From Syntrophobacterales bacterium Delta_02 (GTDB lineage: Bacteria; Desulfobacterota; Syntrophorhabdia; Syntrophorhabdales; Syntrophorhabdaceae): a stretch of DNA of 64,000 nt. The position numbers and the translations under genes were made by a program. Shown here piece by piece: positions 9,263 to 64,000 of the stretch (positions are counted from its first letter, which is position 1; the number at the start of each line of letters is the position of its first letter). The notes under the pieces were generated by a model that was not told where the DNA came from, ran no database searches, and saw nothing but the letters and a program-made list of their open reading frames with translations. The stretch spans positions 1-64,000 of the forward strand of contig LVAA01000011.1 of NCBI GenBank assembly GCA_001603955.1, written 5' to 3'.

Positions 9263-9310
9263 TCCTTTTTCTCGACCGGCGGGCCGACCGGAGCCCCCGG
9301 AGATTCTTGA

Positions 9311-9340
9311 TTGACATCTCTTCGTCTTGTGCTGTATCAT
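9311..9340 (+). promoter_or_regulatory. Sigma-70-type promoter of the NtrC-family regulator
   Basis: Perfect TTGACA (9311-9316), 18-base spacer, then TATCAT (9335-9340), one mismatch from TATAAT. Predicted transcription starts near 9347. This excludes the in-frame TTG at 9327 as a start and leaves ATG 9354 or ATG 9366, with a leader of under 20 bases. Confidence 0.65.
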
Positions 9341-9353
9341 CATTGAAAAGATT

Positions 9354-48214: not shown

Positions 48215-48219
48215 TTTTC

Positions 48220-49044: not shown

Positions 49045-49046
49045 GG

Positions 49047-49823: not shown

Positions 49824-49825
49824 TC

Positions 49826-50509
49826 TTACTCTCCTTTTCCATCATTCCCGGGCTTTACGCCGTAACCGACAAGCATGAGCTCCCTCGACCACCTCAAGGC
49901 CTTCACCTTTGTCCGCACCGGGACGAAGGGTGCCACGGCACGGCACAGGTAATTGAGGACCGGGTATTTCCACACCAGCGGTAACTGCCTGAACCTGGAC
50001 ACCTCGATATCGATGAACCCGTGCATCTCGTAGATATCTCTGAGTGAAACCACCGAGAAGGGGCTTTTGTGCGTATGGTCGTCAAAGTATATCTTGTAGC
50101 ACGATTCCCAGTCGGGGACGAGGGTAATGAGCATGCCTCCCGTCTTGAGGACCCTTCTGGCCTCTTCCATGTAACGCTCGGGGTCGTGAAAATGCTCGAG
50201 CACGGACTTGGAATAGACTACGTCGAAGGTATTGTCATCGTAAGGAATCCCTTCCCTCTCGATGTCGGAGACCCTGACGGGGATATCGGGGCTCAGGGCC
50301 GGCGCCTTCTCGGAGATATCGACACCGCAGGCATCGAGTCCCAGGTCCCGGAAGCCTTTCAGAAACTCGCCCCTGCCACACCCCGCTTCGAGAAACGCCA
50401 TGCCCGGGACCATCCGGAAACGCTGGAAAAGATGAAGACATAGCTCAACCGGATAGCCTGTGTAGGGACGCTCCTTTTCGCTGTACACCACCTCGAGGTA
50501 GTCGGCCAT
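49826..50509 (-). CDS. SAM-dependent methyltransferase
   Basis: A 227-residue class I methyltransferase. MAFLEAGCGRGEFLKGFRDL is SAM motif I; DACGVDISEKAP the acidic loop; FDVVYSKSVLEHFHDPERYM motif II; LKTGGMLITLVPDW the next strand. Substrate unknown, but the position near other sugar-acid genes suggests a sugar. It starts 7 bases after the B12-type radical SAM gene. Confidence 0.92.
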   Translation of the reverse strand: MADYLEVVYSEKERPYTGYPVELCLHLFQRFRMVPGMAFLEAGCGRGEFLKGFRDLGLDACGVDISEKAPALSPDIPVRVSDIEREGIPYDDNTFDVVYSKSVLEHFHDPERYMEEARRVLKTGGMLITLVPDWESCYKIYFDDHTHKSPFSVVSLRDIYEMHGFIDIEVSRFRQLPLVWKYPVLNYLCRAVAPFVPVRTKVKALRWSRELMLVGYGVKPGNDGKGE

Positions 50510-50516
50510 TATCGAC

Positions 50517-51977
50517 TCACAAACTCCTTCTCTTGTGCTCCAGGCTATCGTCGCTCCTTGCGCCCCGGAAGGTCGTTATCTCCCCGGCATAGAGCTGCCT
50601 GAACTTCTCTATGAGACCGGTCGCGGCCGCCATGTCCCCGCTTGTATGTTTGAAATGGTCTGTTATGAGACGCCTGTTCGCGTCAAGCAGGAGCTCGTAG
50701 CACCGCTTGTCGGGAATCCCCGTGAAATTGACAGTCAGAAGATCGGAGTTCACAAACCTTTCGAAAAAGTCTTCGGGGCCTTTGAGGAGCCCCATCTCGA
50801 TCGCGTCGTAGTACAGATCGCATCCCGGGTAGGGTGTTACGGGCCGTATGGTGCGTATCTGGTCATAAAGGTTGTACTTCATTATGAAGTCCACGTTGCT
50901 TCTCAAGGTCTCCTCGTCATCGCCGGGCTCGCCCCATATGCAGTTGAGGCCGACCCCGATACCCATCGATTTCGTGATCTCCGCCGCCCGGTAGTTTTGC
51001 TCTACCGTCACGTTCTTGTGCATCCTGTCAAGGACGCGCTGCGAGGTCGACTCGAAGCCGATGTTGATGAATACGCACCCTATCTCCTTGAGCGTCTCGG
51101 CAATCTCTTCGTCGAAAACATCGACGCGGCTTTCGACATTCAGCATGGCCTTTATGCCGCTCTCCTTCAACGCCTTTCCGAAGTCCCGCACCCTCTTCTT
51201 CGAGTAAACGAAAAGTTCATCAATGAAGAAGAAGTAGGTGATCCCGTACGTATCCTGGAGCGTTCTCATCTCCTCGATGATGCCCGGAATGCTCCTCCCC
51301 CTGATGCCCTTCTCGAGACGGTAGCAGAAATTGCAGCGGTTGACGCACCCCCTGTTGGAAAGCACGGCAAAGGCGCGGTCGCTCTGAGACATGCCGGAGA
51401 GCTTGAGGCACGTCGTGTACTCCTCCATGGGAAAAAGGTCCCATGCCGGCGACCCGAGCGCGTCCAGGTCCCGAACCGGTTTGTTTCTCTCATTGATGCA
51501 CACGTCACCGTTCAGCCGGTAGGCAATGCCCTTGACGTCAGCCAGGTCACCGCCGTCCACCTTGCACCGCGCAAGCTCCACGATCGTCAACTCCGCCTCA
51601 CCGATCGCCGCCACGTCCGCTCCTGTCATCTTGAGAACATATTCGGCGATGGGTGAGGGGCCATGGCCCCCGAGGACGTACCAGGCATCCTTCTTGTGGG
51701 CATTGACGGTGTCAGACAGGCCAAGTATCGTCTCCTTGAAGCGGGCGGCAAGAAAACCGCAGCATATGAGGTCGTACTGTGACGAATCGAGGTGATTCGC
51801 CAGCTGATCGTTGGTGTAATGGAAGACATCCATTGCGTAGACCTCGACATCGCACCCGGCCCTCCGGAGGGCCGCCGTGAGATAACCGGGACCCATGGGG
51901 AAGAAATTGTCCTCCTGGTAGACATCGTGTATGATGAAGAGCACCCGTGGTCTCTTCGCAGTCGTTATTACATCCAT
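50517..51977 (-). CDS. B12-binding-domain radical SAM protein
   Basis: A 486-residue protein. The N-terminal B12-binding-like domain (about 1-150, RVLFIIHDVYQEDNFFPMGPG, CGFLAARFKET, VLGGHGPSPIAEY) is followed by the radical SAM core with CVNRCNFCYRLEKG (CxxxCxxC) and INIGFESTSQRVLDRMHKN. This is the second such enzyme in the cluster (the other at 44905). Possible jobs are C-methylation or a carbon-skeleton change of a sugar; not assigned. Its start overlaps nothing. Confidence 0.9.
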   Translation of the reverse strand: MDVITTAKRPRVLFIIHDVYQEDNFFPMGPGYLTAALRRAGCDVEVYAMDVFHYTNDQLANHLDSSQYDLICCGFLAARFKETILGLSDTVNAHKKDAWYVLGGHGPSPIAEYVLKMTGADVAAIGEAELTIVELARCKVDGGDLADVKGIAYRLNGDVCINERNKPVRDLDALGSPAWDLFPMEEYTTCLKLSGMSQSDRAFAVLSNRGCVNRCNFCYRLEKGIRGRSIPGIIEEMRTLQDTYGITYFFFIDELFVYSKKRVRDFGKALKESGIKAMLNVESRVDVFDEEIAETLKEIGCVFINIGFESTSQRVLDRMHKNVTVEQNYRAAEITKSMGIGVGLNCIWGEPGDDEETLRSNVDFIMKYNLYDQIRTIRPVTPYPGCDLYYDAIEMGLLKGPEDFFERFVNSDLLTVNFTGIPDKRCYELLLDANRRLITDHFKHTSGDMAAATGLIEKFRQLYAGEITTFRGARSDDSLEHKRRSL

Positions 51978-51999
51978 TCGCTCGTTACACTCCTTGAGA

Positions 52000-52443
52000 T
52001 CATTTCTTGAGCTCCTCCACGAGCTCCACTATGATGCCGTCGGGGTCGTGGCAGTACATAACCTTGACGAGCCCGTCGGGCGACGGCTCAGGCGGGTTAT
52101 TGCAGTGAAAACCACGGGCCTCGAGTGTCCTGTACATGTCTTCTATGTCAAGCACCGTGAAGGCCACGTGAGAGAAACCTCGCCGGTAAGCGCCCGCATT
52201 CCCGGGGCCTTCAGCGCAAACCATACCTTTCTTGTACTCTATGAGCTCGACCAGGGACCCTTCCGGGCACTCCAGCTTGGCCCATTCAAGGACGGCCCCG
52301 GGAATCCCGACAACCCTCTCGATGTACTCCCCCGATTCGGTCATCCGCGCGCGGACCTTGAGCCCGATGATGTCCCTGTAAAAGGCGAGCGACCTCTCGA
52401 GATCCCTTACGACGAGGCCCGCGTGGCGCATCGAGAGAGCCAC
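52000..52443 (-). CDS. VOC-family (glyoxalase/methylmalonyl-CoA epimerase-like) protein
   Basis: A 147-residue protein of the vicinal-oxygen-chelate fold with two beta-alpha-beta modules. MRHAGLVVRDLERSLAFYRDI begins the first; FSHVAFTVLDIEDMYRTLEA and YCHDPDGIIVELVE form the second, with metal-binding-type His and Glu residues. The family includes isomerases, epimerases and dioxygenases. The start is taken as GTG 52443, which begins one base after the aminotransferase stop. Its role in this cluster is unknown; an isomerase or epimerase step is plausible. Confidence 0.85.
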   Translation of the reverse strand: MALSMRHAGLVVRDLERSLAFYRDIIGLKVRARMTESGEYIERVVGIPGAVLEWAKLECPEGSLVELIEYKKGMVCAEGPGNAGAYRRGFSHVAFTVLDIEDMYRTLEARGFHCNNPPEPSPDGLVKVMYCHDPDGIIVELVEELKK

Positions 52444-52444
52444 G

Positions 52445-53827
52445 TCACCTCCCCTCGAGGCATTCGGAAATCGCTTCCGCGAGCACTTCAACGCCTTCCA
52501 GCAGCGCCTCCTCACTGATGGTCAGGGGCGGAGCCAGCTTTATCGTCTCCCTTCCCGTATGGACGACGAGAAGCCCCTTCCGCATGGCCCTTTCGCTCAC
52601 CCGGGTCGCAAGGTCCGAAAGGGGATCGCCATTGTTGTCATTGAAATGAAGGGCCGCCAGAAGGCCCTTGCCCAGCACGTAATTGATCACGTCAGGGAAC
52701 CTGTTCTTTATCGCGTTCAGCCTTGCATGGAACAGCTCCCCCAGGACCCGCGACCTGTCGATGAGATCTTCCTCTATTATGTACCGCATGTTCGCAAGAC
52801 CGGCGGCGCACACCACGGGGTTGGCCGAGTGGGTGGAACTCATCGACCCGATCTCGGGGAGGTCCATGATCTCCCGGCTACCGAGGACGATCGACAGGGG
52901 AAGGCTGGAACTGGCCCCCTTCCCGCAGCACAGGATGTCCGGCTCGACACCGTAATGCATGTACCCAAAGAGTTCACCCGTCCTGCCGAAGCCGGCCTGC
53001 ATCTCGTCGAAGGCGATGAGCATGCCGTGTTCTCTCGCGAACCGCTGGAGCGCCTTGACGAAGGCGACAGGGTAGAATGCCGCGCTCCATCCCTGAAAGG
53101 TCTCTATCATGAACCCGCACAGGTCCTCGTCCGCCGACAAACCCTGTGTCCTCATGAGGTCTTCGATGTTCTCATAGAAGTATCCCTCGGGGTCTTCCAC
53201 GGCCTTCGGCCTCCACGGGTACGGAAAGGGAACATGGAAAATGTTCGGGTCCAGGTACCCTATCCACTCCTTCTGCGCCGGGTTGTAGCTCATCATCTGG
53301 GCACCCATCGTACGGCCGTGCCAGTTGCCCTCGAAGCCGATGATGCCCGGTCTTTTCTTGCCCTGCTTAAAGCCATTCATCCGCATCAGCTTGATCCCGC
53401 ATTCCGTCGCTTCCGTGCCGGCGGACAGCAAAAAGGCCTTCTCGAACTGCTCCGGTGTGTTGTCCACGAGATACTTTATGTAATTTACCCTCTCCCGCGA
53501 CGCGTAGGTATACGTGTGAAGAAGCGGTCTGTCGACGACGGACCGTATGGCGTCCCGTATCCTTTCGTTGCCGTGCCCCGCGTTGGTGACGAATATGGTG
53601 CTCGAAAAATCGAGCCACTTGTTGCCCCAGGCGTCATAGACCTGGAATCCTTCGGCCCTGTCCCAGAAGACGGGAAGCTGGCCGTGCATGGAAACCGACT
53701 CGAACCGTTCGAGGTCCTCGAAGACGGGGACCGATTCGGGCACGGGGATCATCGTCGCGATGCGGCGGTATTTCGTGTCGACCTTCGGTACATCTTCGGG
53801 AACGAGAGAGAAGCGGGAACCTGCCAT
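52445..53827 (-). CDS. Class III aminotransferase (glutamate-1-semialdehyde aminomutase-like)
   Basis: A 460-residue PLP enzyme of the class III fold. YDAWGNKWLDFSSTIFVTNA, LLSAGTEATECGIKLMRM, FEGNWHGRTMGAQMM, LIAFDEMQAGFGRTGELFGY and the Schiff-base lysine in CCGKGASSSLPLSIV are all in place. It transfers an amino group to an aldehyde or ketone, or migrates it. The N-terminal about 45 residues are longer than usual. The ATG at 53827 has GGAGG upstream. Its place between a CMP-sugar synthetase and a VOC protein suggests an amino-sugar step, in a family more often used on small amines or semialdehydes. Confidence 0.93.
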   Translation of the reverse strand: MAGSRFSLVPEDVPKVDTKYRRIATMIPVPESVPVFEDLERFESVSMHGQLPVFWDRAEGFQVYDAWGNKWLDFSSTIFVTNAGHGNERIRDAIRSVVDRPLLHTYTYASRERVNYIKYLVDNTPEQFEKAFLLSAGTEATECGIKLMRMNGFKQGKKRPGIIGFEGNWHGRTMGAQMMSYNPAQKEWIGYLDPNIFHVPFPYPWRPKAVEDPEGYFYENIEDLMRTQGLSADEDLCGFMIETFQGWSAAFYPVAFVKALQRFAREHGMLIAFDEMQAGFGRTGELFGYMHYGVEPDILCCGKGASSSLPLSIVLGSREIMDLPEIGSMSSTHSANPVVCAAGLANMRYIIEEDLIDRSRVLGELFHARLNAIKNRFPDVINYVLGKGLLAALHFNDNNGDPLSDLATRVSERAMRKGLLVVHTGRETIKLAPPLTISEEALLEGVEVLAEAISECLEGR

Positions 53828-53856
53828 TATTCCTCCAGTATCAGCTCGCATGCCTG

Positions 53857-54594
53857 TCAGGCGCGGGCACGCCCCAGGTGGTCGCACAAGGGGTGCCCCT
53901 TCGCCGTGATGACGTACTCAAGATATTCGAACTCCTCCATGCGGTCTATCTCAACGATGACGGGCGTGACAAAGGCCTTGACCCTGGGGCCGAAGAGCCC
54001 CTCGCCGCCCCGCACGAAATCGGTCTTGATGATCTCCACATACCCGTTGGGATGGTAGGCCGGAGGGAAGGTCTGACGGGGAAGGTTGTAGTACTCGGGC
54101 CTGGGATCGTTGGGAAAGAAACCGTCGAGGAGCCCATCGTTTATGCACATCATCTTCTGCGGCGGCTCAGGCAACTCCTGAACGGACCTCAAAGATGTCA
54201 CGTCACCGAAGGAGGACCCGATCACTCTTATCGCGTCGGAGATGACCTCCGGGTCCCGTAAAGGAGTTGTCGGAAGGAGCTGGACGAGTATATCGGGTTC
54301 GACACCCTCATTGGCCTTGAACCAGTCGAGGGCATGGAGAATGAATTCTATGTTCGGCGACGTGTCGACGGCCAGTTCGGCGGGCCTCATGAAAGGAACC
54401 TCTGCCCCGTAGCTCCTGGCGATATCGGCTATCTCGGGGGAGTCCGTGGAGACAACGACCCGTTCGATGTCCCTGCACAGGAGCCCCGCGGCTATGGAAT
54501 AGGCGATGAGCGGATACCCGGCAAGTGGTTTGATGTTCTTCTTCGGAACACCCTTCGAGCCACCCCGCGCGGGGATAATAGCATACGTTTTCAT
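53857..54594 (-). CDS. CMP-sugar synthetase (NeuA/PseF/KdsB-type cytidylyltransferase)
   Basis: A 245-residue cytidylyltransferase. MKTYAIIPARGGSKGVPKKN with the following IKPLAGYPLIAYSI is the CTP-binding signature of CMP-nonulosonate synthetases; VVVSTDSPEIADIARSYG and LLPTTPLRDPEVISDAI are also typical. By family knowledge it makes a CMP-activated 3-deoxy-ulosonic acid such as sialic, legionaminic or pseudaminic acid. It is close to two NeuB-like genes, which supports this. The exact sugar is not determined by sequence. A 155-base repeat-containing gap separates it from the upstream TIM-barrel gene. Confidence 0.93.
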   Translation of the reverse strand: MKTYAIIPARGGSKGVPKKNIKPLAGYPLIAYSIAAGLLCRDIERVVVSTDSPEIADIARSYGAEVPFMRPAELAVDTSPNIEFILHALDWFKANEGVEPDILVQLLPTTPLRDPEVISDAIRVIGSSFGDVTSLRSVQELPEPPQKMMCINDGLLDGFFPNDPRPEYYNLPRQTFPPAYHPNGYVEIIKTDFVRGGEGLFGPRVKAFVTPVIVEIDRMEEFEYLEYVITAKGHPLCDHLGRARA

Positions 54595-54749
54595 GTGTGA
54601 TCCCTCGTTCGTTTCAAATTCATGACCTGGTGAGATAAACCACGCTCTGCCGTCATCCCGGCGAAGGCCGGGATCCAGGAAAAGAGTCTGGTCGCAGAAG
54701 CCTCATCCCGTTCAGGAGGACCGTCCAACCCACAAGCCTCAACATCATG
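54595..54749. repeat. Gap with REP-like palindrome
   Basis: No gene is seen. CCCGGC (54657-54662), GAAG, GCCGGG (54667-54672) make a perfect hairpin inside CGTCATCCCGGCGAAGG, and it is followed by ATCCAGG. This sequence is a widespread bacterial REP-type motif, often scattered between genes. It could add a pause or transcript-stability hairpin inside the long minus-strand unit. Confidence 0.75.
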
Positions 54750-55589
54750 TCATTTCGGCAACGCCAGCCTGTCCATCAACCACTCAAGCTGGGTCTTGAA
54801 AACTGCCACTCCTTCATCGTCCCTGTAAGCCTGCATGATGAGGGGACCATCATATCCGGTATCCGCGAGGAGGGCGAAGAAAGTATCGAAATCCGTGTCG
54901 CCCGTTCCCAGCATAACCGAACCACCACCCCGCACGCGATCCTTTATGTGGACGTCGGTGATCTTCTTTCCATAAGCGGCGAATTCCTCCCGCACATCAT
55001 AGCCGAGGGACGCGCTGTTACCCGTATCGTAATTGACCGAGAACACATCCGACCCCAGCCGCGCAAGAAGTTCCGCGAAGGGCCGAGGCGCCAGGTCTGT
55101 CTCGAGAGAGAACCGCACTCCCCTGTCGGCGGCGAGATCCGCAAGAGGCAGAATCTTACCCGCGAACCTCTCGACCTCCTCATCGCTTTTGAGGGATGAT
55201 TGGTCGACACAGGGTATCACGATATCCTTCACACCGAGAAAACGGCCCGCGTTCTCCGCAAGCCGCCGCAGCACCTCGACGCTCAAGGTGGAGACATCCG
55301 GAGAAGGACTGCTCAAGGGGGCCTCCATGAAATAGTCGGCGCATATGGAAACGACGCGCACCCCCGTTTCGTCCGAAAGGGCCTTGATCTGCCTTGCCCC
55401 TTCTTCCGACATGAGGGGGTTCAGTTCGAAATCGTTGTGATCGAGGATAAACTCGACATAGTCAAGGCCAGACCCCCTGGCAAGGGTGAACTCCTCCTGC
55501 CAGTATCCCAGCGGATGCGCCTGGTACCGCCCCATGTACTTGGGCAGGAGCCGCCCCTGCATGACACCGATCTTGTATCGAATGCTCAT
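54750..55589 (-). CDS. Sugar phosphate isomerase/epimerase (xylose-isomerase-like TIM barrel)
   Basis: A 279-residue TIM barrel of the AP-endonuclease 2 / IolE-type superfamily. Metal ligands lie in YVEFILDHNDF, VRFSLETDLA, NYDTGNSASLG and DVHIKDRVRGG. Family members isomerise or epimerise sugars and their derivatives through an enediol with a bound metal. Substrate unknown. It starts 4 bases before the end of the NeuB-like gene's upstream region and is followed by the repeat gap and the CMP-sugar synthetase, so it probably acts on the same sugar. Confidence 0.88.
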   Translation of the reverse strand: MSIRYKIGVMQGRLLPKYMGRYQAHPLGYWQEEFTLARGSGLDYVEFILDHNDFELNPLMSEEGARQIKALSDETGVRVVSICADYFMEAPLSSPSPDVSTLSVEVLRRLAENAGRFLGVKDIVIPCVDQSSLKSDEEVERFAGKILPLADLAADRGVRFSLETDLAPRPFAELLARLGSDVFSVNYDTGNSASLGYDVREEFAAYGKKITDVHIKDRVRGGGSVMLGTGDTDFDTFFALLADTGYDGPLIMQAYRDDEGVAVFKTQLEWLMDRLALPK

Positions 55590-55593
55590 TCAG

Positions 55594-56436
55594 CTAAAAG
55601 TCCGTATGGAAGTGCGCCCTCAGTTTCTTGCTGATGGGGACCTCCTTGGTCAGGACACTTATCACGCCATCGCCCATTGCCCTCTCTATCTTCCTTACGG
55701 CACCAACAAGGCTCTTCAGCCCCATAGGCTCCACGGAGGATGCCTGATCCGACCCGTACATCGCCCTCCCGAGGGTTATATGCCTCTCGAGAGAGGTTAT
55801 GCCCAGCGCGGCGGCTGCGTAGGAGACCGCCAAACCAACTTCATGGCCACTGTAACCGACGTCGCACTTGTAGCGCTCCCTGAGGGTATGGATGCAGTTG
55901 AGGTTTGCGTCCTCATCGTCCATGGGGTATGTGGAGATGCAGTGCATGAGCTCGAAAGGGCACCCGGCCTTGCGGAAGATCTCCACGGCACGGTCTATCT
56001 GTTCGAGGGTGCTCATGCCCGTCGATATGAACGTGTGCCTCTTCTCCGATGCCACCATCTCGAGAAGGGGCTCGTACGTCAGCATGGCCGACGCTACCTT
56101 GTTGTACTTGAGGTCGAACTGACTGAGGAACTTCTGGCTCTCCAGGTCCCAGGCGGATGCAAACCACTCTATCTCCATTTCCTTGCAGAAACGGTCTATC
56201 TCACTGTATTCCTCGAGTCCGAATTCGAGTGCTTCTTTTTGCGCCCTCTGTGTCGTTCCCCAGGGGCTTTCCCGGGGACTGTCAAGCAATTCCTTCGAAT
56301 ACACGAGTTCGACGGTGCGCTTCTGGAATTTGACGGCGTCACAATCCGCTTCCTTAGCCACCTTGATCAGGTCCTTCGCGATCCCGATATCACCGTTGTG
56401 ATTTATGCCTATCTCGGCAATGATGAAGATTGACAC
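55594..56436 (-). CDS. NeuB-family sugar-acid synthase lacking the C-terminal SAF domain (copy 1)
   Basis: A 280-residue enzyme of the sialic acid synthase family, which condenses phosphoenolpyruvate with an amino sugar or sugar-phosphate. EIGINHNGDIGIAKDLI, AVKFQKRT, VASAMLTYEPLLEMV, FISTGMSTLEQIDRAV, VGYSGHEVGL and LERHITLG are present; the metal-ligand histidines in SGH and RHIT are kept. The chain ends right after the barrel: the antifreeze-like SAF domain (about 60 residues), which completes the active site of standard NeuB dimers, is missing. The usual GYSDH is GYSGH here. A second copy occurs at 61113. Confidence 0.9.
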   Translation of the reverse strand: MSIFIIAEIGINHNGDIGIAKDLIKVAKEADCDAVKFQKRTVELVYSKELLDSPRESPWGTTQRAQKEALEFGLEEYSEIDRFCKEMEIEWFASAWDLESQKFLSQFDLKYNKVASAMLTYEPLLEMVASEKRHTFISTGMSTLEQIDRAVEIFRKAGCPFELMHCISTYPMDDEDANLNCIHTLRERYKCDVGYSGHEVGLAVSYAAAALGITSLERHITLGRAMYGSDQASSVEPMGLKSLVGAVRKIERAMGDGVISVLTKEVPISKKLRAHFHTDF

Positions 56437-56448
56437 CTGTTGCCCCCT

Positions 56449-57510
56449 TTATCCGGCTAGATTTTTTTCTATAATCTCGCAGATTATATGCGCGATTGCA
56501 ATATGAGCTTCCTGTATCCTCGGTGTCGAGCCCGAGGGCACGGATATGCAGTGGTCCGACAGAGCCCTGACAAGACATCCCTCATTGTTTCCCGTCATGC
56601 CTATCGTGGTTATACCCATGGATCTCGCGGTCTCAAGCACCCTGGTTATGTTCTTCGAATTCCCGCTCGTCGATATGGCGAAGAGAACGTCGCCCCTGTG
56701 CCCCCGCGCCTCGAGCTGCCGGGAAAAGACCTCGTCGAAGGAGGTGTCGTTCCCGACCGCAGTCAGGGTCGAGGTGTTGACGGTGAGCGCCTCTGCCGCC
56801 AGGGCCCGTCTCTTCAGCAGAAAACTGCTTACCATCTCCGTGGCGATATGCTGCGAATCCGCCGCGCTGCCGCCGTTGCCGCAAAAGAAAAGGGTCCCGT
56901 CTTGCCTGAGGGCCTCTGTCGCAACCTCGGCCGCAGCCGCTATCACTGCCAGCCGATCGGGGTCCTCGAGCAGTGCTTCCATTACTCTGTCGTGCTCCTT
57001 GAGCCGGTCCCTGACAAGCTCCGTGTCCCCGGCGGGTGTCCGGGCGCTCCCGGGTTTCTGAAGGACGTAACGGGCAACCTCGCAGATGACGCCGCAGCCG
57101 CGCTCAGCCTGTGTGACGAGCCCGGCGCACCTTCGCACTTCATCGTCGGCATCGCAGGGCGCGAAGCTGTACCGGAGGTATTCCAGAAGTTCCATGTCCT
57201 TCTTTGAATCACCAACGAAACAGACCTTCGATTCGTCGAATCCCTCCCTCCGTGACAGTTCCCGGAAAGAGGCCAGCTTGTCCTTAGTCCCCGCAACAAA
57301 ATAGTCCGGTGAGAATCTCTTTTTCACGAAGTCGGTGAACCTGTTGTTCTCCCCGGAGATGAACCCAATCTTTATCCCTGCTCTCTTGAGCTCGAAGATG
57401 GCGTCAATGTCCTTGAAGGCTATCCTCTTCGTTTCCTCGCCGTCGGGACCGATGTAGAGAGTGCCGTCTGTCAGGACACCGTCTATGTCAAAGAGAACGA
57501 CTTCGATCAC
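56449..57510 (-). CDS. Fusion: KdsC-like HAD phosphatase plus GmhA-like SIS isomerase
   Basis: A 353-residue protein. Residues about 1-155 are a C0-type HAD phosphatase: D8 and D10 in VVLFDIDGVLTDG, lysine in GTKDKLASF, acidic motif GDSKKDMELL. Residues about 165-353 are a SIS domain close to GmhA: CGNGGSAADSQHIATEMVSS with zinc-type His and Glu, AISTSGNSKNITRV, and TPRIQEAHIAIAHIICE with Gln and His ligands. GmhA isomerises sedoheptulose-7-phosphate; KdsC-like enzymes remove phosphate from 3-deoxy-ulosonate phosphates. GTG 57510 has AAGGAGG; a GTG nine codons upstream is weaker. Confidence 0.93.
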   Translation of the reverse strand: MIEVVLFDIDGVLTDGTLYIGPDGEETKRIAFKDIDAIFELKRAGIKIGFISGENNRFTDFVKKRFSPDYFVAGTKDKLASFRELSRREGFDESKVCFVGDSKKDMELLEYLRYSFAPCDADDEVRRCAGLVTQAERGCGVICEVARYVLQKPGSARTPAGDTELVRDRLKEHDRVMEALLEDPDRLAVIAAAAEVATEALRQDGTLFFCGNGGSAADSQHIATEMVSSFLLKRRALAAEALTVNTSTLTAVGNDTSFDEVFSRQLEARGHRGDVLFAISTSGNSKNITRVLETARSMGITTIGMTGNNEGCLVRALSDHCISVPSGSTPRIQEAHIAIAHIICEIIEKNLAG

Positions 57511-57547
57511 TGAGCTCCCTCCTTTTTCTGTCCGCACCGCCGCATAT

Positions 57548-59452
57548 TCAGTTCCACCACGTGCCCGTTGTGCAGAAATCCCCCGGGACGCCGTATTTCG
57601 CTCTGTATTCGGCCACCGCGTGCCCTATCGATGATTCACGGTCCCCGCCCTTCTCGAGAGCCCCCATGAAGGAGTCGATGAAGCTGCAGATCCTATCCTG
57701 GCCGTCGCTGTCGTCGAAGTAATTTATCCTCTTCCGCCAACGCGAAAGATCACCCACGCTGTCGTCACCTCTTGCGCTGAGCTTAATGGCCGCCTTCATG
57801 TCATCCACTGAACCGTAGATCACCTTCTGCTCTTTGTCCCTGTAGATGGGAAACTTGAGCCATCCCGTGCAGTCCCAGCACACAACCCTGCATCCGTGAA
57901 GCCCGGCGATGATACCCGCCGAATTGACGCCGCAGCACACGGCAAGGTCGGAACGCTTTGCGGCCGCGATGGGAGAGTATTCCCGATGATCGAGGAATAC
58001 CATCCTTTTCCCGGCGACGAGCGCCCTCATTCTGCGCACCACGTCGCCTCCGCCGGGAAAGGCAGCCAGGTCATCCATCTCATATGTCTTGCTCTTGATC
58101 ACCGCCCCCAGGCCCGGATCCTCCTCGAGGATCTCGACGATGCCCGTGTAAAAACGCGAAACGGTTTCGGGTGACTGGTAGAGGTCATACGCGGCACTGT
58201 CGTCGAAAACACTTATCCTGAAGGCCACCTGTGCCGAAAGGTCGATGGGCGGTGCCGTATGAGCACCCTCCTTTACCCACAGACCGCTTGGCAAAATATG
58301 GTCGATGGTGTTGCCTTTCCTCTGGAGGAGATCCCGGTGGGCCTCTCCCCACACGAAGAAGACGTTCTGGGGCGTCAGGTGCGTGGGATACACGTAGTTG
58401 AGGTAGTTGGACCAGTGCAGACCCAGCATCGCTCCACCCGCCTCAGCCAGGGCCTGTGCCTGTGCCTCCTGCATCCACGATACCTCCTGGTGCTGGATAA
58501 GGGCCTTCACGCTGAACGCCCGGAAAAGATCAAGATAAAGCCTTTTGGTGACAACGAAATCCAGCCGGAAGAGCGTGAGCCAGAACGGTTCCGAAAACCT
58601 TGCGCTGCCGAGGAGATCACGAAGGATACCTGCTGCGTCCCGGGGCGTAAGGCAGGAGTTTCTGAACCCGTGAAGGTCAATCCACTTGAACCCGATCCTC
58701 TCGAGGTTGGACGTCGTCTCCGGGGTAACGGGTGTATCGGTCCTATCGAGGTAGTAAACAACGGGATAGGCCGCGTTCCGTGCGCTCAGGAAACCCCTGA
58801 AATCCTTCCATACCCCATGCTGAGGCTCGTATTCTATCCACAATGAGTTCTCTTCCTCTCCCCGTCTGAGACTGCCAAACACATGATGCCCTCGCCAGCC
58901 TGCCAGAAGTCCCCGCATCAGGAGACGCAGCGGTTTGAGCGACAGCCTGAGGAATGATGTCACGGGAAAGAATTGTTTGAGCATCAGACCCTGGTCCCCG
59001 TAATATCCCTTCAGGATATAATTGGCGAAATGGTTCGCGGGGTATATCTCATGGGTGTGACCGGCCACCCCACCCATGCGCTTCCTCACCATCGTCACAA
59101 AGGTCACGCGCTGGTCGAGGAAGGACGAGAGATATGACGCGGTCATCTTCTTCATCCATTCAGGCTCTTCCCCCATGCGTGATCCGCAGAAAAGCCCGAC
59201 CGCCGCAGCGAGGTCATCGGCCCTCTGGTAATCGAGAGCGTAACCTTTATCGTCCGTGAGGTTGAGGACAAGACCGGCAGGGACGAACCCGCCGGCACAT
59301 CCGGCCTTTTTCATGGCACCAAGCATAAGCAGGGCGGATCGTGAAACGCTGTGCTCATTGAATCGTACCTCCACCGGGGAAAACACGGACCTGATCAGAA
59401 ACACCATGATGTGGAGTGCCGTCAACCTCTCCACCCAAGCTATCCTCTTCAC
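57548..59452 (-). CDS. Surface-carbohydrate biosynthesis protein of unknown family (possibly LIC13510-like)
   Basis: A protein of about 634 residues, mostly without strong family motifs. SLWIEYEPQHGVWKDFRGF, GIRGxx-type GT-B sections are not seen; LGLHWSNYLNYVYPTHLTPQ and LAVCCGVNSAGIIAGLHGCRVVCWD suggest a GT-B-like fold of surface-glycan transferases. It may belong to the LIC13510/TIGR04326 group seen in Leptospira O-antigen regions, from recollection only. The open frame extends further upstream, but the first about 140 codons are antisense to the neighbouring gene. Likely starts are GTG 59452 or TTG 59461, both after the upstream stop. Confidence 0.6.
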   Translation of the reverse strand: MKRIAWVERLTALHIMVFLIRSVFSPVEVRFNEHSVSRSALLMLGAMKKAGCAGGFVPAGLVLNLTDDKGYALDYQRADDLAAAVGLFCGSRMGEEPEWMKKMTASYLSSFLDQRVTFVTMVRKRMGGVAGHTHEIYPANHFANYILKGYYGDQGLMLKQFFPVTSFLRLSLKPLRLLMRGLLAGWRGHHVFGSLRRGEEENSLWIEYEPQHGVWKDFRGFLSARNAAYPVVYYLDRTDTPVTPETTSNLERIGFKWIDLHGFRNSCLTPRDAAGILRDLLGSARFSEPFWLTLFRLDFVVTKRLYLDLFRAFSVKALIQHQEVSWMQEAQAQALAEAGGAMLGLHWSNYLNYVYPTHLTPQNVFFVWGEAHRDLLQRKGNTIDHILPSGLWVKEGAHTAPPIDLSAQVAFRISVFDDSAAYDLYQSPETVSRFYTGIVEILEEDPGLGAVIKSKTYEMDDLAAFPGGGDVVRRMRALVAGKRMVFLDHREYSPIAAAKRSDLAVCCGVNSAGIIAGLHGCRVVCWDCTGWLKFPIYRDKEQKVIYGSVDDMKAAIKLSARGDDSVGDLSRWRKRINYFDDSDGQDRICSFIDSFMGALEKGGDRESSIGHAVAEYRAKYGVPGDFCTTGTWWN

Positions 59453-59477
59453 TGTCGCCAACGTATTGGATCCGATC

Positions 59478-60338
59478 CTATTCCTCTGAGCGCGAAAAGC
59501 TCGCGATGATCGTGTCGCAGCACCCGATCGATGCCAGTTGCTTCTCGTAAGCCGCGTGAAGCGCCTCGCTGTCGAGAAAACCCCAGGTCTTGTGACCGCC
59601 GGGTTTTCCCTTCGACAGCCAGTAGAGGTGGTTGGAGAGGGGGTATCTTTGCACCTGCTTGATGTAGTTGACCTTGAACCCCGCCTTCTTAGCCACCGCT
59701 TCCAGGGTGGGACCGGTGTAGAGGAAAAGGTGCGGGCTCCAGTAGGTGAACCTCGAAAAGGCCTCATTCTCATAAAGCGTGAGGAGCGCATCGCCCGCGT
59801 TGGGCACTTCCACAACAATGGACCCCGCGGGGGAAAGCCTCTCGAGGAGTCTCCCCAGCATGTCGATGGGATCGGCAATGTGCTCGAGCACGTGAAAGAG
59901 CGTTATGATATCAAAAGAGTCCACGACGCTGTCGATAGAGGCATGAACGGTAAGCCCCTGCTCCCTGAAGTAGGACTGCAGCCTCTCTTCCAGCTCTATT
60001 CCCTCGACCCGCCGTGCTTTCTTTCGGGCCCGTAAGAGAAACCCGCCGTTGCCGCACCCGAAATCGAGGACCGACCTGTTCTCCAGCAGGGTCTTCAGGA
60101 AGGCGAACCTCCTGTCATCGTCCCACGCGGTGTCGACCACCCAGGACGCTATGTCGACCTCGCCGTCATGCATCCCGGAGGATTCGTAGAAGTTGTCATG
60201 TATATGATCAAAGGATGAGAGAAAGACAAGGCCACAGGAACGGCACTCGTATACCTCGAGGTCAGGGTTGTCCCGGACCGAACCCGGTCTCTTCTTGTGG
60301 TCCCTCCCGCCGCAGAGATAGCAGGTCCTGTCGCTCAT
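59478..60338 (-). CDS. SAM-dependent methyltransferase with N-terminal zinc-ribbon-like cysteines
   Basis: A 286-residue protein. The N-terminal part has CYLCGG and YECRSCGLVF, four cysteines likely binding zinc, as in the methyltransferases seen in C-methylsugar and O-antigen loci. The SAM part has VLDFGCGNGGFLLRARKKA (motif I) and FDIITLFHVLEHIADPIDML (motif II). The ATG at 60338 begins one base after the upstream gene's stop (TGAC-ATG). The upstream gene is a cytidylyltransferase, so the methyl group may go on a sugar nucleotide. Target unknown. Confidence 0.9.
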   Translation of the reverse strand: MSDRTCYLCGGRDHKKRPGSVRDNPDLEVYECRSCGLVFLSSFDHIHDNFYESSGMHDGEVDIASWVVDTAWDDDRRFAFLKTLLENRSVLDFGCGNGGFLLRARKKARRVEGIELEERLQSYFREQGLTVHASIDSVVDSFDIITLFHVLEHIADPIDMLGRLLERLSPAGSIVVEVPNAGDALLTLYENEAFSRFTYWSPHLFLYTGPTLEAVAKKAGFKVNYIKQVQRYPLSNHLYWLSKGKPGGHKTWGFLDSEALHAAYEKQLASIGCCDTIIASFSRSEE

Positions 60339-60339
60339 G

Positions 60340-61110
60340 TCACGCATTCTCCTTCTTGATCACCAGCTTCGTCTTCTTCTTCTGGTTGTCCAGGTAGTCC
60401 TTCTGCCGCGCCGAGTTGATGGCGACTATCTCGGGATGGTCCTTCAGGAAACCCGTGATCTCCCTGAGAGGAACATCGTTATCGACACACCGGTAGTGTT
60501 CGAATATACGGTTGAAGAACTCGAAGTCCTCGGGGTAATCGAGGGTGAGCCTGATGTCGTCGCTGAAGAACGCCCGGTCCCCCACGATGAGGTCACTTAC
60601 CTTGAAGAGCCCCGTATCCTCGAAATACACCCACATCATCTCCGTGTCGGCGGTGTCCTTGATCTCACAGACCCTGTTGAGGGCGCTCACCCTGATGCAA
60701 TAGGTGAAGGAACCACATATGAGACCGGGCGGCGCCTTTATGTAATCGCAGCCGCTCTCTTCCATCTGTCTCACTCCGAGTTGAATGAGCTCCGGGTCGC
60801 ACAGGAGGTCATCGCCATCCATGGTCGCGAAGAGGTCTATGCCGTGGGCCTTCGCGGCGCCCTGCCACCTCAGCAGCTTGTCCTCGAGGCTCCCCCTGAA
60901 ATGCTTGATACCCTGTTTCCTGGCTATGTCGACGATGACGTCGTCGATGGGTCTTTCCGTCGTGCACAGAATGACATCATCGACACCATTGACCTGCTTT
61001 GCCCGGAGAATGACCATCTCTATCGTCGGCCTGCCCAGTATCTTCATGAGTGCCTTGTTCGGCAACCTGCTGGAATCCGACCGGACAGTGATGAATACCG
61101 CTTTCTTCAT
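60340..61110 (-). CDS. SpsF-like cytidylyltransferase family protein
   Basis: A 256-residue nucleotidyltransferase of the SpsF/CMP-KDO-synthetase-like group. MKKAVFITVRSDSSRLPNKA, followed by LMKILGRPTIEMVI, is the nucleotide-binding signature; FATMDGDDLLCDPELIQLGV has the metal aspartates. Unlike the enzyme at 53857 it has no PARGGSKG loop, so it belongs to a different subfamily, found with spore-coat and surface polysaccharide genes. It is placed between NeuB copy 2 (2 bases upstream) and the methyltransferase, so it may activate that product with CTP. Confidence 0.88.
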   Translation of the reverse strand: MKKAVFITVRSDSSRLPNKALMKILGRPTIEMVILRAKQVNGVDDVILCTTERPIDDVIVDIARKQGIKHFRGSLEDKLLRWQGAAKAHGIDLFATMDGDDLLCDPELIQLGVRQMEESGCDYIKAPPGLICGSFTYCIRVSALNRVCEIKDTADTEMMWVYFEDTGLFKVSDLIVGDRAFFSDDIRLTLDYPEDFEFFNRIFEHYRCVDNDVPLREITGFLKDHPEIVAINSARQKDYLDNQKKKTKLVIKKENA

Positions 61111-61112
61111 GA

Positions 61113-61994
61113 TCAGTAGCCCCTCAGTTTCTTTCTCACTTCCCTCTCTTTCTCTGTAACCCGTTTCACGCCGTCCCCGAGCATGACGTCCACCCCTTTT
61201 ATTCTCTTGTAAAGCATGTCCATCGCGTGGACCTCGAGGCTCGCGAAATGGTCGGAGCCCCACATTGAGTGGTCGAGGGTGATATGCCGCTCGATCACCT
61301 TTGCGCCGAGGGCCGCCGCTATCACGCTTGGCTCCAGGTCGTACTCGTGACCGCTGTAGCCCACAACACACCGGTATCTTTCGGCCAGGAATGGTATGGC
61401 CAGGAGGTTCAGCTCTTCCTGCGGAGCGGGGTAATTCGAATTCGTGTGCATCAGGACGTAATCGCCCTTCGAGTGTTTCTCCATGACCTCCACCGCGTGG
61501 TCGATTTCCTCGACGGAACTCATGCCCGTCGACAGGATGACAGGTTTCTGCGACCTGCAGGCCTCGGTAAGCAGCTCGTCCTCGGTCAGCTTCGCCGAGG
61601 GTATCTTGATGAAAGGGACGTCGTACTGGAGGATGAAGTGAAGACTTCCCATGTCCCACACCGAGGCCGTCCACGCTATCGGTTTTTCCCGGCTGTACCT
61701 GTCGACATAGTCATACTCGTCCTTCTCGAACTCGACCCTGTACCTGTACTCGAGGTACGTCATCCTTCCCCAGGGCGTGTCCCTCATCACGTTCTTCTGC
61801 TCTTCAGGCACGCAGACCGCCGGCGTCCTCTTCTGGAACTTCACGCAATGCCAGTTGCAGGCGAAAGCAGCATCAATGAGCTTCTTTGTTATTTCCACGC
61901 TACCGTTGTGGTTGAGGCCTATCTCGGCGATCATGTAGATGGGCTCTTTCTCGCCCACCAGCCTGCCGTCTATCTTTACCACTCTATTTGCCAT
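61113..61994 (-). CDS. NeuB-family sugar-acid synthase lacking the C-terminal SAF domain (copy 2)
   Basis: A 293-residue paralogue of the gene at 55594. EIGLNHNGSVEITKKLID, CVKFQKRTPAVCVPEE, PSAKLTEDELLTEA, ILSTGMSSVEEIDHAVEV, VVGYSGHEYDLEPS and IERHITLDHSMWGSDH are present; the SAF domain is again absent after the barrel. The GYSGH form and the KRT form of the QT loop are shared with copy 1, marking a common branch. Two synthases in one locus suggest two different sugar acids or two steps. Confidence 0.9.
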   Translation of the reverse strand: MANRVVKIDGRLVGEKEPIYMIAEIGLNHNGSVEITKKLIDAAFACNWHCVKFQKRTPAVCVPEEQKNVMRDTPWGRMTYLEYRYRVEFEKDEYDYVDRYSREKPIAWTASVWDMGSLHFILQYDVPFIKIPSAKLTEDELLTEACRSQKPVILSTGMSSVEEIDHAVEVMEKHSKGDYVLMHTNSNYPAPQEELNLLAIPFLAERYRCVVGYSGHEYDLEPSVIAAALGAKVIERHITLDHSMWGSDHFASLEVHAMDMLYKRIKGVDVMLGDGVKRVTEKEREVRKKLRGY

Positions 61995-62007
61995 CTCGAA
62001 CCCCTGG

Positions 62008-63069
62008 TCACACTGAAAAATAGTTCCCGATCAGCTTCATGTCACACTGAGCGGTGCACTTGATACCCTTCGTCAGGAGAAAATGGTCCATGCGCAGCTT
62101 CCTGTACCTCTCGCCGTTCCAGATGTCGGCAAGGCTCTCCTTCTTCGCGTCCCCGAGAACGATCTCGTTGTTGAAGTCCTCCATGCACATTGCGGCCTCT
62201 GCGTTCGACTTTATGGTCATGGACATCCACGGGTGCTTGCAGTATTCCGACCAGTGAACCGAATTGGTCCCGTGGTAATCCTGCCTGTACCATTGCTGGT
62301 CCTCACTCTTGAGGTATATGTAAACATCGAGGCCGTCGAAGGCCTTCTCCAGCAATTCGTAATCCTTCATCTGGTTCTGCCTGTTGAGGTTGAGCATGGT
62401 GATGATTATGGTCGTCTTGTAACCATTCTCCTTCTTGATCCTCAGCAGCTCCTGTATCTTCTCGTAGCTCTTCGAGAAATCCGAGGCCTTTCCCCTTATC
62501 TTCTTGTGGAGGACGTCGTCGACGGTCTCGATGGAATACTTGATATAGTCCAGACCGTTCTCGAACATGTTCCTCATCTTCTTTATGTTAATGTTGGAGG
62601 GATTGCAGCTGAAGTAGGAATGCATCCCCTTTTCCGAGAGTATCCTGACATATTCCGGCATGTTCTTGTCCAGAAGGGGGTCACCGTATCCGTGAAGCTG
62701 GATGACCTTCGGGATTATGTAGAGGAAGAAGTGGTTCTCGCTCATGTCCGTCTTCCTGACCCCGTATTCCGTCTCGACGAACCCTTCCCATTCCCGCCAC
62801 TGTGCCTCGTAGAAGGGCTCGAGCTGGTCGACGACCCCCAGGAAGGTCGCCCTGTCGATGGTTTCGATGGGCCGCGTCATCATTGTCGTTCTCGGGCACA
62901 TCTCGCACCGCATGTTGCAGGCATTCGTGGTCTCGATATTGTAGACCACGGGCTTCTTGTTCCTGAAACCCTCCATCGTGGCGATAAGCTCATCCCTGTC
63001 TATCTTCTCCCCCGCGTCAAGCCTCTTTCGCAGCGGATTCATCTTCATGTAAAAGTCTATGTCGAACAT
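62008..63069 (-). CDS. Radical SAM protein with SPASM-like C-terminal region
   Basis: A 353-residue enzyme. TNACNMRCEMCPRTTMMTRP gives the CxxxCxxC cluster motif. The C-terminal part has cysteines in EYCKHPWMSMTIKSNAEAAM, in AMCMEDFNNEIVLGD and in IKCTAQCD, in the spacing of auxiliary-cluster SPASM or Twitch domains. The family modifies peptides, sugars or cofactors; substrate not evident. It lies between the DegT-like aminotransferase and NeuB copy 2, so it may act on their sugar. Confidence 0.85.
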   Translation of the reverse strand: MFDIDFYMKMNPLRKRLDAGEKIDRDELIATMEGFRNKKPVVYNIETTNACNMRCEMCPRTTMMTRPIETIDRATFLGVVDQLEPFYEAQWREWEGFVETEYGVRKTDMSENHFFLYIIPKVIQLHGYGDPLLDKNMPEYVRILSEKGMHSYFSCNPSNINIKKMRNMFENGLDYIKYSIETVDDVLHKKIRGKASDFSKSYEKIQELLRIKKENGYKTTIIITMLNLNRQNQMKDYELLEKAFDGLDVYIYLKSEDQQWYRQDYHGTNSVHWSEYCKHPWMSMTIKSNAEAAMCMEDFNNEIVLGDAKKESLADIWNGERYRKLRMDHFLLTKGIKCTAQCDMKLIGNYFSV

Positions 63070-63096
63070 TACCTTCCTGCCTTTATGGTGTCAACA

Positions 63097-64000
63097 CTAC
63101 CCGGAGAACTTCTTTATGACCTTCTCCAGTACGAGCGCCTTCTTTTTCGCGAGGTCTATATCCCTGTAATTGGTCTTGAACTGCATCAGTTTCGGTTGCA
63201 CCGACTCGGCGACGGGGCACAGTCCTCTCTCGTATCCGACGTCTTTGTACACCCACGGACACCTCCCGGCGAACTGTCTCTGTTCCACCATGGGCTCCAG
63301 GTAGGGCACGCTCCACGCCCCGTAGATACCGTCGCCGCCTTCCCGGATATAGGCCTTCCTGAAATCCTGCCACGAAACCCCGATCGCCTCCCCGCCGTTG
63401 TAGATGACCCCGAGGGTGTAATAAGAGTTAGTGCGGTCGCCCGGTACCTTCTGGGGGGTAAGGTAGGTGCACCCGCTCATCACGTCCATGAATATCTCGG
63501 CGCTCTTCACCCTGAGGTCGACGAGCGTTTCCACTCTTTCGAGCTGCGCCAGGGCCACCGCGGCATTGAACTCGGAAAGTCTGTAGTTCCAGCCCAGGAC
63601 ATCGTGCCTCTTGTAGTCGGGGTCCTGGAAAACGTCCTGATTCAGCCGTATACGGCCCTCGGAGGCCTTCAGGTTCTTGAAGCCGTGACCGGCCACCTTT
63701 CTGGCCTTCTCGGCGTACTCCTCACTGTCCGTAACTATCATCCCGCCCTCACCGCACGAGATGTGTTTCGTGTTCTCGAAACTGTAGCTCGCCATGTGGC
63801 CTATCGTTCCCGCCATCCTCCCCTTGTAGGTACTCAACACGCACTGGGCGTTGTCCTCGATGACGACGAGACCGTGCTCCTTCGCTATCTCCATGATCTC
63901 ATCCATATCCGGGGGGAGGCCATAGAGCGCGACGGGGATGATCGCCTTCGTCCTGTCCGTTATCTTCCTCTTCACGTCGGCGGCGTCGATATTGAACGTC
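63097..64000 (-). CDS. DegT/DnrJ/EryC1/StrS aminotransferase (partial, runs off right edge)
   Basis: The 3' part of a PLP-dependent sugar aminotransferase; the frame is open to position 64000, so the start is outside the window. VIEDNAQCVLSTYKG, then SFENTKHISCGEGGMIVT with the Schiff-base lysine, and ENTK-type context are diagnostic of the DegT family. GWNYRLSEFNAAVALAQLER is the second typical block. It would add an amino group to a keto-sugar (nucleotide). First gene of the cluster seen here. Confidence 0.93.
   Translation of the reverse strand, partial: TFNIDAADVKRKITDRTKAIIPVALYGLPPDMDEIMEIAKEHGLVVIEDNAQCVLSTYKGRMAGTIGHMASYSFENTKHISCGEGGMIVTDSEEYAEKARKVAGHGFKNLKASEGRIRLNQDVFQDPDYKRHDVLGWNYRLSEFNAAVALAQLERVETLVDLRVKSAEIFMDVMSGCTYLTPQKVPGDRTNSYYTLGVIYNGGEAIGVSWQDFRKAYIREGGDGIYGAWSVPYLEPMVEQRQFAGRCPWVYKDVGYERGLCPVAESVQPKLMQFKTNYRDIDLAKKKALVLEKVIKKFSG

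Follow-up and report, generated by a model that had tools for sequence, protein, structure and literature searches.

We analysed a 64,000-nucleotide stretch of DNA from Syntrophobacterales bacterium Delta_02 (hereafter the window), comprising bases 1-64000 of the 95277-bp contig LVAA01000011.1 in a genome of 4.03 Mb and 285 contigs, in which genes for a putative sugar-acid pathway surround a synthase of the NeuB family. An earlier interpretation made from the letters alone (the sequence-only reading) had recognized two such synthases without the SAF domain, two cytidylyltransferases (PF02348), a KdsC-GmhA fusion, a class III and a DegT aminotransferase, a TIM barrel and a SPASM-type radical S-adenosylmethionine (SAM) enzyme, and every gene named there was found, all on the minus strand and with Pfam matches above cut-off. 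While these genes do share one strand, they do not form the single block of about 10 kb then described but two modules, the first of which extends down to 46427. Module A (46427-60347) consists of 13 genes in the order MT2, PFTS, KdsC/GmhA, NeuB2, TIM, CytA, AT3, VOC, rSAM/B12, MT1, SDR1, SDR2 and LIC12162 transferase, while module B (CytB, NeuB1, SPASM and DegT) runs from 60340 to contig base 64323. In gene order, module A contains:

59478..60347, minus strand: SAM methyltransferase MT2 (PF13489), at the upstream limit of the block that two congeners (L156 and L157) also have, 81% identical in both of them
57548..59407, minus strand: PFTS-motif polysaccharide biosynthesis protein, a possible glycosyltransferase (TIGR04417, 31 bits against a cut-off of 100)
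56449..57537, minus strand: KdsC-type HAD phosphatase fused to a GmhA-type SIS isomerase, 362 amino acids (aa), GTG start (PF13580 and HAD matches)
55594..56436, minus strand: NeuB2, a SAF-less NeuB-family synthase, 280 aa, GTG start (PF03102, 231.3 bits)
54750..55589, minus strand: TIM-barrel epimerase/isomerase-like enzyme, 4 bp after NeuB2 (PF01261, 108 bits)
53857..54594, minus strand: CytA, a CMP-sugar synthetase-like (PseF/NeuA-like) cytidylyltransferase (PF02348; TIGR03584, 134 bits, below the cut-off of 205.7)
52445..53827, minus strand: class III aminotransferase AT3 (PF00202, 275.6 bits), likely start 53827, frame open to 53887
52000..52515, minus strand: VOC/glyoxalase-like metalloprotein (PF00903), an open frame with its true start probably near 52431
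50517..51977, minus strand: B12-binding radical SAM enzyme (PF02310 and PF04055)
49826..50509, minus strand: SAM methyltransferase MT1 (PF08241)
49047..49823, minus strand: short-chain dehydrogenase SDR1 (PF13561, 176 bits)
48220..49050, minus strand: short-chain dehydrogenase SDR2 (PF13561, 143 bits)
46427..48214, minus strand: LIC12162-family transferase, predicted to be GT-B-like (family profile, 434 bits against a cut-off of 225)

The two congeners keep an identical module A gene order, their enzymes being 81-93% and their two transferase-like proteins 57-66% identical to those of the window. NeuB2-grade matches (about 500 bits) occur in 3 of 12 searched genomes of the genus, own genome included, a patchiness that would fit an accessory, exchanged surface-glycan locus.

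Natural fusions are the strongest evidence that these genes belong to one pathway, and they are independent of neighbourhood. The window's KdsC-GmhA protein has 5563 homologues, and the 120 matches listed each cover 96-98%. In a search whose query was NeuB2 and TIM joined end to end, with the resulting fusions verified by domain search, we identified a NeuB2-TIM fusion (P0241, 579 aa, 61% identity over 99% of the query), KdsC-NeuB2 fusions (P0291, P0299, P0340) and a NeuB2-CytA fusion (P0334); cytidylyltransferase-KdsC fusions are present at L014 (by Pfam) and at L013 and L016 (by layout). Since the fusions chain GmhA, KdsC, NeuB2, cytidylyltransferase and TIM, these enzymes likely act together.

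NeuB2 has at least 8000 homologues at E 0.001, and the 120 matches listed (79-100% identity, 277-291 aa) come from Syntrophorhabdus, Nitrospirae, Brocadiaceae and Endomicrobiales. Among named genomes we found 46 NeuB loci, several on cut contigs, with identities of 70% or more in Omnitrophota, Nitrospirae, Elusimicrobia, Scalindua, Neomarinimicrobiota, Spirochaetes, Lentisphaerae, several proteobacterial bins and Spirulina, 44-69% in Lachnospiraceae, Dehalococcoidia, Acidobacteria, Prochlorococcus, Pelagibacter and others, and 31% at one locus. Within 9 kb of the focal NeuB lie a CytA-type cytidylyltransferase in 30 loci, KdsC in 20, GmhA in 19, SDR2 in 19, AT3, MT1 and MT2 in 16 each, TIM in 15, SDR1 in 14 and VOC in 13. 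Because the profiles used for SDRs, aminotransferases, methyltransferases and cytidylyltransferases are generic, some of these neighbours will be paralogues; relatives of SDR2 at 51-62% identity occur in 15 of the 46 loci. Of these loci, 27 have KdsC or GmhA and 12 have both. Eight NeuB loci (L006, L025, L027, L033, L037, L038, L040 and L041) also encode an acetolactate-synthase-like thiamine diphosphate enzyme, directly after NeuB2 or KdsC(-GmhA) in all but L006, possibly for two-carbon branching, and in L028 a nitrilase/amidase-family gene (6534-7334) lies within the NeuB2 cluster beside CytA and AT3.

The SAF-less character of both window synthases is borne out: PF03102 (cut-off 22.1) is the sole Pfam match of each, and the frames stop 5 (NeuB2) and 1 (NeuB1) codons past the barrel profile. 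Scores against TIGR03569/TIGR03586 (NeuB2 243/179 bits, NeuB1 235/173) fall below the Neu5Ac and pseudaminic synthase cut-offs of 399.65/340.25. The residues aligned to E25, K53, Q55, K129, S132, H215, E234, H236 and D247 of Neisseria meningitidis NeuB, to which we ascribe catalytic roles, are invariant in 20 NeuB2 proteins; window NeuB2 has Met at the position of E134, and it lacks the SAF domain, which carries R314.

As a control we searched 297 genomes of the window's phylum. Of the 150 matches listed, 3 belong to the genome of the window itself and 15 were omitted (2 at contig ends), which leaves 106 long and 26 short NeuBs; the short ones were compared with 34 full-length ones drawn at random from the long set, with flanks of up to 9 kb. 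The number of residues after the barrel is bimodal among 108 measured NeuBs (0-27 against at least 53), and in a tree of 110 NeuBs, where the two from the window were entered manually and taken to have a tail of 7, most SAF-less members group together, with few outside. A Lys-Arg pair directly after the catalytic Lys-x-Gln (KFQKR) is found in 66 of 71 short but only 4 of 38 SAF-bearing NeuBs, and the latter four (L084, L097-L099) are near relatives of the SAF-less clade. The SAF-bearing L098 also has a KdsC and a SIS protein nearby, and this locus, together with the motif in SAF-bearing NeuBs, suggests that the motif may predate SAF loss. A separate SAF-less group (L069, L072, L074 and L075) has neither the motif nor a KdsC nearby.

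In the phylum sample, 9 of 26 SAF-less NeuBs have KdsC or GmhA nearby, against 1 of 34 that bear SAF (Fisher p 0.0015), a signal carried by KdsC (8/26 versus 1/34). When NeuBs are sorted by motif, 9 of 25 with QKR and 1 of 37 without it have KdsC nearby (p 0.0007), and this one lies in the same locus as a QKR NeuB; none of 5 SAF-less NeuBs without QKR has it. It is thus the Lys-Arg motif, more than truncation, that goes with the phosphatase, and we infer that the pair may read a sugar phosphate. This would bear on the role of SAF, a domain missing from the very branch in which the motif and nearby phosphatases indicate such a substrate. A stand-alone SAF acting in trans was considered as well, and none was present among six small open reading frames (ORFs) and four other NeuB2 neighbours scanned. 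Two small ORFs, L024:11549-11947 (which weakly matches the HAD family PF25109, at 22.4 bits against 27.6) and L039:10831-11142 (without a family), cluster together; that they stand in for KdsC is only a guess.

The nearest solved chain to the KdsC half is 3e81, which we take to be BT1713, the phosphatase of 2-keto-3-deoxynononic acid (KDN) 9-phosphate. Glu is present at BT1713 position 56 in all 121 aligned rows and all 29 loci, window included, and position 67 is Lys or Arg in 120 of 121 rows (Arg in the window), whereas KdsC 7t35 has Arg56/Thr67; we assume that Glu56 and Lys67 are the specificity residues of the KDN-9-phosphate phosphatase. Judged by these residues, the KdsC half is not a phosphatase of the 3-deoxy-D-manno-octulosonic acid (Kdo) type.

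The GmhA half is nearest to the solved GmhA chains 2xbl/2x3y. Of 17 distinct full-length GmhA copies linked to NeuB, 16 retain the residues aligned with His, Glu, Gln and His, presumed metal-binding or catalytic, and the window protein equals an HldE-linked GmhA (L112) at 12 of 13 tabulated metal/catalytic and phosphate-loop positions, the thirteenth varying among HldE-linked copies too. The GmhA alignment held 37 rows, four short fetched matches being excluded, and 6 rows were omitted from the tree; rows omitted from such trees were degenerate, fragmentary, duplicate, non-isomerase or unlabelled. Repeated recruitment of GmhA was also considered: with 25 of the rows (12 omitted), a single clade was rejected by an approximately unbiased test (p 6e-5), but once four unlabelled rows were dropped as well (16 omitted) the test gave p 0.30, and the result was not used as evidence.

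Among 22 carrier genomes, HldE domain II is matched in 17 (7 above cut-off) and GmhB in 14 (5 above cut-off). Neither is matched in four, namely L025 and L037 (Lachnospiraceae), L026 (Dehalococcoidia) and L036 (a Pelagibacteraceae single cell). GmhA is directly beside NeuB2 in all four, fused to KdsC in L025/L037 with the KdsC half between, and is the sole GmhA-family match of the genome in L025, L037 and L036; L025 and L037 have no KdsA match above cut-off either. Some cytidylyltransferase is present in all five genomes checked (L025, L037, L027, L033 and L036). That no other use of GmhA is visible in the four genomes, whose records are of uncertain completeness, is no more than suggestive.

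These observations lead us to read module A, tentatively and with a confidence that comes close to an even chance without reaching it, as an accessory pathway from sedoheptulose 7-phosphate to a CMP-activated ten-carbon acid for a surface glycan. The GmhA half would convert sedoheptulose 7-phosphate to an aldoheptose 7-phosphate, which SAF-less NeuB2 would condense with phosphoenolpyruvate to the 10-phosphate of a 3-deoxy-dec-2-ulosonic acid, a compound of ten carbons; after dephosphorylation by the KdsC half, CytA would convert the free acid to its CMP form. The remaining enzymes would tailor either the precursor or the product: TIM, SDR1 and SDR2 could set the stereochemistry, while amino and methyl groups could come from AT3, VOC, rSAM/B12 and the methyltransferases. 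The sugar transferase may be the PFTS or the LIC12162-family protein. The sequence itself shows which genes are present and conserved, how fusions tie the five core enzymes together, that catalytic residues are retained, that NeuB2 lacks SAF and has the Lys-Arg motif, and that the phosphatase has a residue unlike that of the Kdo type; what we infer is the substrate, a product of ten carbons and each of the reactions. The heptose entry, already suggested in the sequence-only reading, is plausible in light of the fusions and of genomes that show no other use of GmhA, although the substrate itself is deduced.

Among the tailoring enzymes, the TIM barrel is nearest to the solved UlaE 3cqh, and in the window protein (54750-55589) and 12 relatives the Glu, Asp and His ligands are kept, while the fourth is Gln in 11 of the 13 aligned rows; with this fourth ligand it may not be an ordinary 3-epimerase, and a textbook assignment as such was set aside. 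Replacement of GmhA by TIM was likewise dropped, since the two co-occur in many loci and show no replacement pattern. The VOC protein has a His/Glu/His/Glu ligand set in 11 of 11 aligned rows.

Several points weigh against the ten-carbon interpretation. Both halves of the fusion score below family cut-offs (KdsC half against TIGR01670, 89.3 bits; GmhA half against TIGR00441, 172.7 of 209.45 bits), although 5 of 6 HldE-linked GmhAs also fall under the latter (185-209 of 209.45 bits). Neither GmhA nor KdsC lies within 9 kb in 19 of the 46 loci, some of them on cut contigs, and in the phylum sample GmhA alone is near just 3 of 26 SAF-less versus 1 of 34 SAF-bearing NeuBs. As the fusion family served to build the KdsC profile, phosphatases unlike it, among them Arg56 types, could have been missed in part, and the neighbour counts as well as the 29/29 figure for Glu56 are weaker for it. 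One NeuB2-linked GmhA, in L030 (fusion 8898-9962), is degenerate and no longer has its glycine loop or catalytic residues. HldE or GmhB is matched in some form in 18 of the 22 carrier genomes, and of the remaining four, L025 and L037 are near-identical and thus count as one lineage, while L036 is a single-cell genome of 1 Mb. The main weakness is substrate size: the substrate we take as known for BT1713 is a nine-carbon acid, and a GmhA acting on a six-carbon ketose phosphate would give KDN-like nine-carbon acids.

The latter is the core of the chief rival explanation, which we judge unlikely though far from negligible. Here, within the same five-enzyme logic, the GmhA-like half would isomerise fructose 6-phosphate or a related hexulose 6-phosphate, and NeuB2 would make KDN-9-phosphate or a stereoisomer, followed by KdsC and CytA. 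KDN pathways of such logic are known; that of Bacteroides thetaiotaomicron (mannose 6-phosphate and phosphoenolpyruvate to KDN-9-phosphate, KDN and CMP-KDN, with BT1713 as phosphatase) is like module A in its phosphorylated aldose, NeuB-family synthase, HAD phosphatase with Glu56 and CMP activation. The proximity of the KdsC half to 3e81, with Glu56 and a basic residue 67 in common, favours this rival insofar as 3e81 is, as assumed, BT1713. However, the KdsC half reaches 83.9 of the 180 bits of the KDN-9-phosphate phosphatase family NF058599, which leaves it under the cut-off, it is fused to GmhA, and the isomerase half has the residue set of HldE-linked phosphoheptose isomerases. Since ordinary KDN synthesis needs only phosphomannose isomerase, a dedicated GmhA would go unexplained. 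A further possible difference from the B. thetaiotaomicron pathway is that window NeuB2 has no SAF domain.

It is improbable that GmhA serves ADP- or GDP-heptose and adjoins NeuB2 only via shared surface-glycan clusters, NeuB2 making an ordinary nonulosonic acid. Such pathways do have a GmhA-type isomerase in common with module A, and the loci with neither GmhA nor KdsC nearby and the frequent HldE or GmhB matches speak for this reading. Unlike them, however, module A has GmhA fused to KdsC, the GmhA-KdsC and KdsC-NeuB2 fusions link steps, and the four genomes described above have the GmhA-NeuB2 pair with no HldE or GmhB match. The one sugar-1-phosphate nucleotidyltransferase examined near module A (PF00483, 41358-42140), a candidate HddC-like heptose-1-phosphate guanylyltransferase, is instead RfbF for CDP-glucose (322 bits against 300), beside RfbG, and so lends no support to GDP-heptose.

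A second, analogous Kdo route, with the SIS half as arabinose-5-phosphate isomerase, NeuB2 in place of KdsA and the KdsC half as Kdo-8-phosphate phosphatase, would follow the same order of reaction types as KdsD-KdsA-KdsC-KdsB (isomerase, phosphoenolpyruvate condensation, HAD phosphatase, CMP activation), but module A differs in synthase family, SIS type and phosphatase residue, the canonical KdsA (377 bits, the genome's sole KdsA match) lies elsewhere, on contig C193, and we consider this route very improbable. Equally hard to sustain is the earlier view that both NeuBs serve one pathway to one acid: though adjacent on one strand in the window, they fall in different clades of the NeuB tree, no NeuB lies within 4.5-5 kb past MT2 in either congener, and each whole congener genome has one NeuB-profile match (G323, 66% complete; G327, 97% complete), so that, both congeners carrying module A without a second NeuB, NeuB1 and NeuB2 are placed in separate modules.

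The pathway we tentatively favour, from sedoheptulose 7-phosphate to a ten-carbon acid, also differs from the sialic, legionaminic and pseudaminic pathways. These share NeuB-family chemistry and CMP activation with module A, but use an unphosphorylated N-acyl sugar, a SAF domain and nucleotide-sugar precursor genes, while the window block has no SAF and no pseudaminic set: no member of PseB, PseC, PseF, PseG or PseI scored above NCBIfam cut-offs among the block proteins scanned. The absence of PseB, PseC and PseG had been noted before and holds for the block; it does not extend to the genome, since contig C250 carries a full set (L005 7491-13157; PseB 532, PseC 480, PseF 309, PseG 229 and PseI 493 bits, all above cut-offs). 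The SAF-bearing synthase of this set, with a full-length 376-aa frame, is the genome's third NeuB. HldE-like and GmhA-like genes lie together on C125, and the window block genes are distinct from these, from the pseudaminic set and from KdsA.

More broadly, we suggest that the same logic may define a bacterial class of CMP-activated 3-deoxy-dec-2-ulosonic acids, made from sedoheptulose 7-phosphate via a SAF-less, phosphate-reading NeuB branch and spanning Syntrophorhabdus-type anaerobes, Omnitrophota, Lachnospiraceae, Spirulina, Prochlorococcus and Pelagibacter relatives, a generalization that we regard as possible without calling it probable. An unfamiliar sugar-acid pathway had been proposed from the sequence, and indeed no known set was matched; the term nonulosonate used for it would, however, name too small an acid if the precursor is indeed a heptose, since a heptose precursor would give a ten-carbon acid. 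Sialic- and Kdo-type acidic surface sugars shape phage attack, host recognition and biofilms, and a ten-carbon class, if real, would extend the series of eight- and nine-carbon acids. Because the genes are annotated as N-acetylneuraminate synthase, such a class would have been overlooked. A ten-carbon acid would have one clear mass, with an adduct of 1,2-diamino-4,5-methylenedioxybenzene (DMB) at m/z 415.13 (worked out by hand).

A description of the pathway or of deculosonic acids was not found in the open-licence literature, as judged from listings, and a term search of PMC7371886 and PMC13317340 gave no hits; the pathway would thus be a variant of the NeuB/Kdo type not previously described in the literature searched. 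For a nonulosonic acid synthase of Leptospira, YP_002104, Ricaldi et al. (2012, PMC3438082) describe a C-terminal domain "homologous to endonucleases" and infer a phosphorylated substrate, a fused phosphatase and a Neu5Ac product. The NeuB2-TIM fusion P0241 suggests that this domain, going by its description, may be a PF01261 TIM barrel. The same paper has unassigned DMB peaks at m/z 407 and 440; neither equals the 415 expected for the ten-carbon acid, and they were not used. In our alignment the SAF-less NeuB structure of Leptospira borgpetersenii (6ncs) is without the Lys-Arg pair of the NeuB2 type.

Module B stands apart from module A and would yield a second acid, with a phosphorylated sugar as its starting point. 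Its genes are:

60340..61110, minus strand: CytB, a KdsB/SpsF-like cytidylyltransferase (PF02348, 59 bits)
61113..61994, minus strand: NeuB1, a SAF-less synthase, 293 aa (PF03102, 237.5 bits), 43% identical to NeuB2
62008..63069, minus strand: radical SAM/SPASM enzyme (PF04055 and PF13186)
63097..64000, continuing to contig base 64323, minus strand: DegT aminotransferase (PF01041, 270.6 bits; L004:98-1324), cut by the window end at 64000 and complete on the contig (408 aa)

Two Bacteroidetes/Ignavibacteria bins (L045 6015-7787 and L046 1914-3694) carry NeuB1-type synthases with CytB, an SDR2-like protein, an aminotransferase and a split transketolase pair. Upstream of module B lies a NodU-type carbamoyltransferase (L004 7675-9495, contig 70674-72494), making a carbamoylated glycan possible. 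Adjoining the block, the RfbF-RfbG pair (glucose-1-phosphate cytidylyltransferase and CDP-glucose 4,6-dehydratase, window 40294-42140) represents a CDP-deoxysugar branch, and at 27980-29836 of the window a polyprenyl glycosylphosphotransferase-like N-terminal part is fused to a PseB-like 4,6-dehydratase domain.

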